59,222 nt of DNA, from positions 1 through 59,222 of the IMG/VR virus record IMGVR_UViG_3300046511_000626; one strand, given 5' to 3'. The translations under genes and the position numbers were made by a program. A model generated the notes under the pieces. That model worked only from the letters and a program-made list of their open reading frames with translations. It was not told the DNA's origin and made no database searches. Shown here piece by piece: positions 18,711 through 39,459 of this stretch. The DNA comes from a virus. The first letter of the stretch is position 1, and each line of letters opens with the position of its first letter.

Positions 18711-18842
18711 TTGCCGAAGGGATCATCGCTTCCGGAAGGTATCTCGGTCTTCACGCCTAGAAAGCGGTTGTCTCTCCGCCCACCAGTTACGCCGGTGAAT
18801 GCGCCGGCACAGCCCTCCTTCCGTTGGCTTCCCCTTCGGCAA
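18711..18842 (-). ncRNA. Structured RNA element between tRNA and small ORF
   Basis: In the minus-strand transcript, TTGCCGAAGGG (18842-18832) and CCCTTCGGCAA (18721-18711) form a perfect 11-bp helix closing 110 nt. Inside, GCCGG/CCGGC (loop 8) and GGGCGG/CCGCTT (two G-U pairs, loop 8) form hairpins and AGCC/GGCT a further short one, which gives a multibranch layout. The closing helix starts at the base next to the tRNA discriminator and ends about ten bases before the Shine-Dalgarno of the next gene. No known riboswitch class was recognised. Could be a cis-regulatory leader or a tRNA-processing signal. Confidence 0.55.
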
Positions 18843-18914
18843 TTGCGGAGGTCGGAATTGAACCGACGACTGCCCGGTTATGAGCCGGGAGTTCTACCAC
18901 TGAACTACTCCGCG
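18843..18914 (-). tRNA. tRNA-Met (CAU), initiator-like
   Basis: A complete 72-nt cloverleaf: acceptor CGCGGAG/CTCCGCA, D-stem GTTC/GAAC with AGTGGTA loop, anticodon stem CCCGG/CCGGG with loop CTCATAA (anticodon CAU), 5-nt variable loop, T-stem GTCGG/CCGAC with TTCAATT loop, discriminator A. CCA is not encoded. The first pair is C1-A72, unpaired as in bacterial initiator tRNAs. The three inner anticodon-stem pairs are all G-C, though 29-41 is C-G rather than G-C, and 11-24 is U-A rather than the initiator A-U. So it mixes initiator and elongator features; a CAU tRNA-Ile2 is a less likely alternative. Confidence 0.9.
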
Positions 18915-18919
18915 ACGAA

Positions 18920-36874: not shown

Positions 36875-37080
36875 GCGCAAGTAATCTCGTTAACCTGCAA
36901 AAAGCGGTAGACGATATCGAATCCCTGCTGGATGAGAAGGACCGCCGAATCGCTGAACTGGAAACTGCCGAAGGAAAATGGGAAAAGAGCGAGAAGGATT
37001 ACGAGCGTCTCGTTGAACAGTACGAGCGGGAAATCGAAAACCTCAAATTGGAGCTAAAGGAAGCCAATGAGCACGACTGA
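36871..37080 (+). CDS. Coiled-coil small protein
   Basis: A 69-residue protein starting at GTG with a coiled coil over most of its length (KAVDDIESLLDEKDRRIAEL, YEREIENLKLELKEANE). Likely dimeric. It ends 14 bp inside the nuclease gene, so the two may be made in a fixed ratio. Confidence 0.6.
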   Translation: MSASNLVNLQKAVDDIESLLDEKDRRIAELETAEGKWEKSEKDYERLVEQYEREIENLKLELKEANEHD

Positions 37081-38278
37081 GAATCTACCCAAACCCGAAG
37101 AGATGACTGCGGTTCAGATGGGGCAGGCGATTGAAACAGCATGGGCCCAGTTCATGAATCAGGACTCGCGGCCAATGTCCAAGCGTAACAACGTCTACGC
37201 ATCGGCCTACCGGGAGTGCACACGCCAGATGGTTCTCGATATGACCCACGGCGACACGCTGCCCGGCTTCGATGCCGATACCCTTGCGCGCTTTCGTCGT
37301 GGAAATGATCGGGAACGTGACCTAATGGCCGACTTGAAGAAAGTCGGCCGTAATTCCGAACCGTCGTTCGAAGTGGCTGGCGAACAGGAACGGTTCGAGA
37401 TACGGGACAAGAAAGGGCGCGTGTGCATCACCGGCAAGATCGACGGCCGTCTGGTGTTCCGCGATTACAAGAACCTGAAGTTCCTGCACGGACAGCGGAG
37501 TACTCCGATCGAGGCCAAGGCCTGGAGTGCACAGTTGGTTGCGCACATCGACGTATTCGAGGATCTGTTCAAGAGCCGCTGGACTCGAGCCGGTGCCTAC
37601 CAATTGCTGTCCTACATCTTCGCAGAGAACGTACCCTTGGGATTCTTCCTGCTCGATCGTAGCGGACTGCCGGCGTTGATACCGGTGGAGCTCTATCCGA
37701 ATCTGGACAGGGTTGAAAAGTTCCTCGTGAAGTCCGAACAGGCAATGGATCACAAGGAAGCCGGCACGCTTCCCGACTACACGGCCGAAAAGGAAGAGTG
37801 CAAGTTCTGTCCGCATTTCGGACGGAATTGCAATCCACCGATGGACTTCGGCGCCGGCGCCCAGGTGTTCACGGATCCGGAGGTAATCACCAAGGCTGAG
37901 CGCTTCAATGAGCTCGAGCGGAAGATGACCGACGAGGAATGGAGCGAATTCAATCGGCTCGACAAGTGGAAGAGCCAACAGTTCCGCGGGGTGGAAACCG
38001 GTGTCGCTGGTGGTTTGCTGATCACTGGCAAATGGAAAAAGGGAAAGGAAGTCACAATCCCGGAAGCCGACCAGGCCGACGTCAACCTGAAGACAATCGA
38101 GTTCCAACAGTTCATGGAGAAGTACACAACGGAGAATCCGAAGAAACAGTTTTCCGTGAATCTGATCCGTGTGAGCGACGTTCCTCCGCCGGCGGCTCCG
38201 AAGGAAGAGAAGGCGGCCGCGGCGCCGAAGGAACCGAAGAAGCGAAAGAAGAAGGGCGACGATCAACTGTCGCTTTGA
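37067..38278 (+). CDS. Fe-S RecB/Cas4-like PD-(D/E)XK nuclease
   Basis: A 403-residue nuclease. Catalytic residues: Asp126 in GKIDGRLV, Glu149-x-Lys151 in IEAKAW, and QLLSY (179-183) as motif IV. Four Cys (Cys51; Cys245, 248, 255 in CKFCPHFGRNC) are placed as in Cas4/AddB-type iron-sulphur clusters that bracket the nuclease core. It could trim DNA ends for recombination. The Pro/Lys tail ends DDQLSL, like a sliding-clamp-binding motif (QL[SD]LF). A structured RNA follows the stop by one base. Confidence 0.8.
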   Translation: MSTTENLPKPEEMTAVQMGQAIETAWAQFMNQDSRPMSKRNNVYASAYRECTRQMVLDMTHGDTLPGFDADTLARFRRGNDRERDLMADLKKVGRNSEPSFEVAGEQERFEIRDKKGRVCITGKIDGRLVFRDYKNLKFLHGQRSTPIEAKAWSAQLVAHIDVFEDLFKSRWTRAGAYQLLSYIFAENVPLGFFLLDRSGLPALIPVELYPNLDRVEKFLVKSEQAMDHKEAGTLPDYTAEKEECKFCPHFGRNCNPPMDFGAGAQVFTDPEVITKAERFNELERKMTDEEWSEFNRLDKWKSQQFRGVETGVAGGLLITGKWKKGKEVTIPEADQADVNLKTIEFQQFMEKYTTENPKKQFSVNLIRVSDVPPPAAPKEEKAAAAPKEPKKRKKKGDDQLSL

Positions 38279-38279
38279 T

Positions 38280-38364
38280 ATCCCCCCACTGCCAAGGAGG
38301 GGATCGCCGCGGGATGTCTGCGGCGTAAACAGGGGAGGCCGGTGGCCTTGGCAGGAGACCGGCC
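38280..38364 (+). ncRNA. Three-hairpin RNA with 9-bp kissing loops
   Basis: Hairpin 1 is ATCCCC/GGGGAT (38280-38285, 38299-38304), hairpin 2 CGCCGC/GCGGCG (38305-38310, 38320-38325), hairpin 3 GGCCGGT/ACCGGCC (38337-38343, 38358-38364). CTGCCAAGG (38289-38297), in loop 1, is exactly complementary to CCTTGGCAG (38346-38354) in loop 3. Such a loop-loop pairing across a spacer hairpin makes a compact RNA fold. The same two segments could instead form a long-range stem. No known RNA class recognised; position between two genes suggests cis-regulation or a free RNA. Confidence 0.65.
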
Positions 38365-38386
38365 GAACCTTTCTTGTCAGTCACTA

Positions 38387-38429
38387 CCGGGCGGCTGATG
38401 TACGGAAGGGTACGGTGACAGCCGCTCGG
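38387..38429 (+). promoter_or_regulatory. Hairpin enclosing the start site of the next gene
   Basis: CCGGGCGGCTG (38387-38397) pairs over 11 bp, one G-U, with CAGCCGCTCGG (38419-38429). The 21-nt loop holds GTAC-GGAAGG-GTAC, a small hairpin with the ribosome site, and the GTG start at 38415. The start is thus sequestered unless the stem opens, which makes translational control by the RNA just upstream plausible. Confidence 0.65.
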
Positions 38430-38660
38430 ATTTTTATGACAGACGAAGAACGATCAATTGAAGGGTACCGGCTATTCCAGTTGATTCGAGACAAACTGGC
38501 AACCGGGGCCACATTCAAGAATCCGAAGTCGGCGGATTTCTTCTCTGGCCAGATCCCGCGATTCAATCGCCGGTACGAAAAGACGTACGTATCCAAGGGC
38601 CAGTTGAAATGGCTGTCGGACATCATCAAGAAAAAGCAACTGACTGGAGCGGCGAAGTGA
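38415..38660 (+). CDS. Small basic protein under RNA control
   Basis: An 81-residue protein from GTG 38415 (GGAAGG five bases upstream, inside a hairpin loop); an ATG at 38436 has no ribosome site. Helical and basic (RSIEGYRLFQLIRDKLATGA, YVSKGQLKWLSDIIKKK). Unknown family. The 136-bp leader is the most structured non-coding segment seen in this window. Confidence 0.65.
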   Translation: MTAARIFMTDEERSIEGYRLFQLIRDKLATGATFKNPKSADFFSGQIPRFNRRYEKTYVSKGQLKWLSDIIKKKQLTGAAK

Positions 38661-38866
38661 TCGACATCAACCAGTTGACGGAAGCCGACAAAGGCCGCGA
38701 AGTCCGCTACCAAACATTCGGGCGAATCGAATACGGAAGGATTACATCGTGGAGTAAGGCTTCCATTTTCGTTCGCTATCACACAGTTGTTGAAGGCGGG
38801 TTCTCGCGCGCTCGGACCGGCGAAACCAGCGAATCGACAAGTCCGCAAGATTTGGAGTTTGTATGA
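38657..38866 (+). CDS. Small phage protein, unknown
   Basis: A 69-residue protein starting at GTG 38657 inside the previous stop (GTGA). The DKGREVRYQTFGRIEYGRIT then SWSKASIFVRYH pattern is a small SH3-like barrel style common in phages. Function unknown. Confidence 0.6.
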   Translation: MIDINQLTEADKGREVRYQTFGRIEYGRITSWSKASIFVRYHTVVEGGFSRARTGETSESTSPQDLEFV

Positions 38867-39459
38867 AGTTTTGTTTCATCGATTGCGAGACCACCGGTAC
38901 CGACAAGGAAAGATCCGGATTGATCCAGCTGGCCGGCGCAATCGCCATAGAAGGCAAGATCGTCGAGCGGTTCAACCTCACCGCGGCGCCGTTTGACGAT
39001 GACCTGATCGCCGAGGAAGCCCTGCAGGTCAATGGATTGACGAAGGGAATTATTCGCGGATATCAGGAGCCGCGTCGTGCCTACCTGATATTCATCAAAA
39101 TGCTGGGACAGTACGTCGACAAATACAATCCGAGGGACAAGTTCCAGCTTTGCGGATTCAACGGGGACTTCGACGCCGACATGATTCGTAGTTGGTTCAA
39201 GAAGAACGGCGACGACTATTTCGGTTCCTGGTTCTGGTGGCCGGTGATCGACGTCGCCAAGCTGGCCGGGATCCGCTACATGGATACGCGCGGTCAGCTT
39301 CCAAACTTCCGGTTGACCACGGTCGCTAAGTTTGCCGGCCTGGAGGTCGACCAGGCAAAGGCCCACGACGCGATGTACGACATTGACCTGACGATGCGCC
39401 TCTTCGAGATGTTCACGCGCGATCTGACGAATCTCGATTTCAAATTGGAGTTCGCATGA
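38863..39459 (+). CDS. DnaQ-like 3'-5' exonuclease
   Basis: A 198-residue DEDDh exonuclease. Exo I: FIDCETTGTD with Asp7 and Glu9; Exo II: FNGDFDADMI near residues 99-108 with a catalytic Asp; Exo III: AHDAMYDIDLT with His168 and Asp173. No polymerase domain is attached and no polymerase is seen nearby, so it works alone or with the host polymerase, for example in end trimming or recombination. Overlaps neighbours by 4 bp. Confidence 0.9.
   Translation: MKFCFIDCETTGTDKERSGLIQLAGAIAIEGKIVERFNLTAAPFDDDLIAEEALQVNGLTKGIIRGYQEPRRAYLIFIKMLGQYVDKYNPRDKFQLCGFNGDFDADMIRSWFKKNGDDYFGSWFWWPVIDVAKLAGIRYMDTRGQLPNFRLTTVAKFAGLEVDQAKAHDAMYDIDLTMRLFEMFTRDLTNLDFKLEFA

Follow-up and report, generated by a model that had tools for sequence, protein, structure and literature searches.

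What role is played by a run of hairpins that interrupts an otherwise tightly packed phage operon? The question is raised by the virus record IMGVR_UViG_3300046511_000626, the whole of which (59,222 bases) was analysed here and is referred to as the window. In a simple gene model, the + strand genes from ~34.3 kb onwards mostly overlap by 4 nt, and the gap at 38279-38435, which separates a Cas4-type exonuclease gene (the nuclease gene) from a small gene, is the exception to this packing. Here we describe, in the gap of this phage replication operon, a previously uncatalogued intercistronic RNA with structural support. Our preferred reading, to which we assign a probability of roughly 45%, is that of a cis-acting mRNA element in which a protective or processing array of hairpins is joined to a structured ribosome site; such an element probably tunes the expression of the neighbouring genes.

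A hairpin array in the gap of a phage operon

Two relatives carrying the element were found in IMG/VR, namely IMGVR_UViG_3300047440_000490 (G001) and IMGVR_UViG_3300046724_000480 (G002), and a covariance model locates a single copy per record in all three. Over the first three hairpins (H1-H3) G001 is identical to the window save for one C fewer, and is therefore informative only for a fourth hairpin, H4. G002 is a divergent relative that keeps the element together with the downstream genes. The features of the locus outside H4 are as follows.

37067..38278, + strand: Cas4/RecB-type exonuclease (nuclease) gene, upstream; phrog_1990 Cas4-domain exonuclease, E 3.5e-06
38276-38278, + strand: nuclease stop codon TGA, read from the sequence
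38280..38304, + strand: hairpin H1, stem ATCCCC/GGGGAT, loop CCACTGCCAAGGA, read from the sequence; starts 1 nt past the stop codon
38289..38297, + strand: CTGCCAAGG, loop-1 half of a 9-nt complement; invariant in G001 and G002
38305..38325, + strand: hairpin H2, stem CGCCGCGG/CTGCGGCG, loop GATGT; compensatory G-C to A-U change in G002
38337..38364, + strand: hairpin H3, stem GGCCGGT/ACCGGCC, loop GGCCTTGGCAGGAG; compensatory U-A to A-U change in G002
38346..38354, + strand: CCTTGGCAG, loop-3 partner of CTGCCAAGG in the 9-nt complement; changed in G002
38436..38660, + strand: small downstream gene, MTDEERS..., 74 aa; start common to all three phages
38863..39459, + strand: DnaQ-type 3'-5' exonuclease gene, further downstream; PF00929 RNase_T, E 6e-13, and phrog_192, E 2.8e-27

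The three hairpins that an initial annotation had placed behind the nuclease stop codon are thus present. The segment 38276-38450 folds at -84.8 kcal/mol against a mean of -63.4 for shuffled sequences (z -4.97; 0/200 shuffles as good), and the counterpart in G001 has a z-score of -3.94. An alternative stem pairing GTCACTACC with GGTACGGTGAC was rejected, as G001 does not keep that pairing.

The same annotation had recognised no known class of RNA here, in agreement with an Rfam search that found no match above the gathering score. The element is narrowly distributed, being known from three sequences of which two are nearly identical. Searches of phage and plasmid records with patterns of the element gave no match, nor did a 26-base exact pattern in genome contigs; among exonuclease relatives, covering 2 further viral contigs and some of 52 genome contigs, the covariance model gave no convincing copy. 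Patterns built on H1 and on H1-H2 returned G001, G002 and matches at about chance level only, and two of the latter, L111 and L104, which had a covariance-model score and were inspected, both lie in coding sequence. When the 9-nt loop pair itself served as the pattern, 21 stretches were retrieved, of which only that of G001 shows the architecture.

Compensatory changes argue for conserved stems

Between the window and G002, H1 and H2 differ by two substitutions in all, both on paired partner bases, so that the pair is restored (G-C to A-U, in H2). The U-A to A-U change in H3 of G002 is likewise compensatory, and the outermost pair of that stem is lost. H4, compared between the window and G001, carries two compensatory (double) and two one-sided changes, with 16/16 pairs kept. 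None of the compensatory changes in H2, H3 and H4 arises in a control in which the partners were slid by 1-3 columns. H1, whose stem and loop are invariant in the three phages with the exception of one C, shows no covariation and is thus without independent support. In a shuffle control the observed value was reached by 45/500 shuffles for H1-H3, loop pairs included, and by 135/500 for H4; as this control is weak with two or three sequences, we take the compensatory changes as support and not as proof. Together with the fold z-score, they uphold the claim of a structured RNA, and suggest, from three sequences only, that the structure is conserved by selection. The + strand RNA is likelier to be the folded form, since on the opposite strand the G-U pairs of H2 and H4 would turn into C-A mismatches.

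Constant position in mosaic genomes

The three phages are mosaics, and part of the sequence conservation may therefore reflect recent exchange. Within the nuclease gene (37067-38278), the sequences are identical in the three phages at ~nt 100-600, beyond which G002 diverges to 59-86%; this clearly marks a mosaic breakpoint. Since the genomes are mosaics, a rival explanation is that the conserved block marks a recombination boundary, a linker that joins gene modules and has no role as an RNA. This patchwork identity speaks for it, as do two insertions, each of a gene absent from the other two records: a PNK3P-like (polynucleotide 3' phosphatase) gene between the nuclease gene and the element in G002 (C1:5255-5758, minus strand), directly before the element, and a 66-aa gene between H4 and the MTDEERS gene in G001 (C1:6758-6955), after it. 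We nevertheless consider a linker quite unlikely, as it would not account for the restored pair at the sole two H1-H2 substitutions that separate the window from G002, the compensatory changes in H3 and H4, or the G-U pairs on the + strand.

The position of the array points to a relation with the gene upstream. H1 begins 1 nt after a stop codon in 3/3 phages, behind two unrelated upstream genes: the junction T-TGA-TATCCCC stands behind the nuclease in the window and G001, and behind the PNK3P-like phosphatase in G002. The distance to the next start and the downstream genes vary among the three phages. The fixed spacing behind the upstream stop codon suggests that the element serves the upstream 3' end, a role known from protective intergenic hairpins (PMC5927463).

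G002 keeps the stems but not the loop 1-loop 3 complement

The loops of H1 and H3 do contain the perfect 9-nt complement originally described, CTGCCAAGG against CCTTGGCAG. Inverted repeats of 9 nt spaced 12-100 nt apart are ordinary in the window (43 cases), but only one place has both arms in hairpin loops closed by stems of at least 6 bp, with 0.01 expected per dinucleotide-shuffled window. The match is accordingly unlikely by chance, as had been claimed, with the proviso that the earlier reader had the whole window in which to spot such features. Its presence in both the window and G001 counts as one inherited event, the two elements being identical there.

In G002, loop 1 is unchanged and loop 3 reads GGGCTCAGGCAAGGA, so that 4/9 column pairs are broken without compensation, the longest run is 4 pairs (UGCC/GGCA), and the energy of the loop duplex weakens from -18.1 to -6.7 kcal/mol. 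The proposed kissing-loop fold is therefore not kept in this phage, and the other suggested arrangement, a switch to a long-range stem, fares no better, the three hairpins being favoured over it by ~15 kcal/mol. Complementarity is thus lost without compensation in a homologue where the loops are concerned, and not where the stems are; a striking 9-nt loop complement can be absent from a relative that keeps the stems.

These observations bear on the possibility that pairing of loops 1 and 3, in response to a protein or a ligand, acts as a switch on the downstream start. Its attractions are the rarity of the loop complement, the invariance of loops 1 and 2, and the persistence of the 4-pair run UGCC/GGCA at an almost unchanged position in loop 3 of G002. 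Yet 4-nt matches between loops of this size are common by chance, the remaining pairs are broken without compensation, the long-range helix is energetically unfavourable, and G002 lacks H4 altogether. Nothing points to a ligand, and the ligand-responsive part of the original proposal found no positive support. We therefore give little credence to such a switch.

H4 presents a ribosome site within a hairpin

Downstream of the array, the window and G001 carry a further hairpin with the following features.

38387..38429, + strand: hairpin H4, 43 nt, 11-bp outer and 5-bp inner stem, followed by ATTTTT; 16/16 pairs kept between the window and G001
38404..38409, + strand: ribosome site GGAAGG, forming the apical loop of H4; AAAGGG in G001; unpaired probability 0.97-1.0
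38415..38417, + strand: GTG start codon in a 4-nt bulge of H4 (ATG in G001); unpaired probability 0.81-0.98 for the three bases

The outer stem (38387-38397/38419-38429) has 11 bp, one of them a G-U pair. H4 was not listed by a scan that accepts loops of 3-8 only. The initial annotation had described a sequestered start site, and the 11-bp stem indeed encloses both GGAAGG and GTG; however, both are unpaired in the predicted fold, lying in the apical loop and in the bulge, and so appear enclosed and not paired away. The assignment of this GTG as the start of the next gene also stands in part: its frame continues into MTDEERS, but the homologous protein starts at the ATG at 38436 in 3/3 phages, and the GTG start adds merely MTAARIF ahead of it in the window. 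In G001 the corresponding frame (MTAAQIF) forms a leader of 11 codons whose end overlaps the start of the inserted gene. In G002, which has no H4, AAGG and ATG stand close behind H3. The ribosome-site hairpin is thus a separable module, missing from one of the three phages.

With its ATTTTT tail, H4 could also be an intrinsic terminator or attenuator, the whole then being a 3' UTR or a small RNA that ends there. The G+C-rich 11-bp stem followed by AUUUUU, present in the window and G001 with compensatory changes, is what recommends this explanation. We regard it as unlikely, given that a reading frame passes through H4 (MTAARIF/MTAAQIF), that in both phages the apical Shine-Dalgarno sequence and the bulged start codon fit a ribosome-binding hairpin, that H4 is a 43-nt hairpin with an internal loop and five U only, that G002 dispenses with H4, and that the operon continues downstream with replication genes. 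On the predicted fold, a structured initiation site appears to suit H4 better than a terminator does, although the AUUUUU tail would also be consistent with termination. Structured ribosome-binding sites occur in phage mRNAs, and H4 resembles them in having a Shine-Dalgarno sequence and a start codon within one hairpin. It differs from them in that neither is base-paired, the former being in the apical loop and the latter in a bulge, and in that it is found in 2/3 relatives only.

A candidate intercistronic element with invariant loops

The preferred reading, a cis-acting intercistronic element, draws on the gap at 38279-38435 in an operon of mostly 4-nt overlaps and on the stable fold of the segment in the window and in G001, as well as on the compensatory changes, the G-U pairs of the + strand and the position behind the stop codon described above. 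Stable hairpins lie between cistrons, close behind a stop codon, as in protective or processing elements. In the mechanism we propose, the flanking genes would be transcribed as one polycistronic phage mRNA, in which the three stable hairpins directly behind the upstream stop codon would form a structural barrier. This barrier may protect the upstream message from 3' exonucleases, mark a processing point, or both, and would thereby let the operon's two parts differ in expression level. Where H4 is present (2/3 phages), its apical loop would display the ribosome site of the next reading frame and its bulge the start codon, an arrangement expected to moderate initiation at that frame.

Protective intergenic hairpins are established in malE-malF and other systems (PMC5927463). 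The phage element shares with the intercistronic stem-loops of malE-malF and the puf operon, known from differential operonic decay (PMC5927463), the placement of stable hairpins right behind a stop codon within an operon and a conserved structure; it differs in consisting of three tandem hairpins with invariant loops and in being confined to a small group of phages. A generic barrier has no need of invariant loops in H1 and H2; these loops count against it and hint at a specific binding partner. Other points weighing against the cis-element reading are that it draws on three sequences, two of them nearly identical, that H1 lacks covariation and that the genomes are mosaic.

A more specific explanation takes these loops at face value. 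In this scheme the element would be a new phage RNA motif whose invariant loops 1 and 2 bind a specific phage or host protein and thereby link translation termination on the upstream nuclease gene with expression of the exonuclease module downstream, while loops 1 and 3 touch through the short UGCC/GGCA run, extended to 9 pairs in the window and G001. We hold this to be distinctly improbable; if the invariant loops do bind a protein, the element would merit characterisation as a compact phage regulator.

Another rival explanation is that the element is a decoy or a cis site bound by CsrA/RsmA, as H1, H2 and H3 each have GGA motifs within or next to their loops. CsrA sites are GGA motifs, best placed in hairpin loops (PMC5027483), and GGA near the loops is retained in G002 even with its changed loop 3. 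Like CsrB/RsmZ-type RNAs, the phage element has several short hairpins with GGA near the loops; unlike them, it has few sites and no significant GGA enrichment, its 5 GGA in 90 nt falling inside the operon's own range, as 8% of windows there reach that count. Most of these motifs are partly paired, none of the three records contains a CsrA gene, and Rfam gave no Csr/Rsm match, which together make CsrA binding very doubtful.

GOLLD and ROOL are structured phage RNAs that use kissing loops supported by covariation (PMC12286853). They are far larger (GOLLD often >800 nt) and often lie near tRNA islands, whereas the phage element spans ~90 nt between two protein genes and its loop pairing is not conserved.

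Two minor observations concern coding and tRNA content. A mini-ORF, ATG TCT GCG GCG TAA (MSAA*), lies at 38314-38328 inside H2, with its ATG, in loop 2, conserved in 3/3 phages, and a perfect AAGGAGG in H1 stands 13 nt upstream of that ATG. It is possible that MSAA* is a leader mini-ORF, one that is poorly spaced from AAGGAGG and longer in G002. Elsewhere, a tRNA-Met (CAT) gene at 18842-18915 on the minus strand is the sole tRNA gene found in the window.
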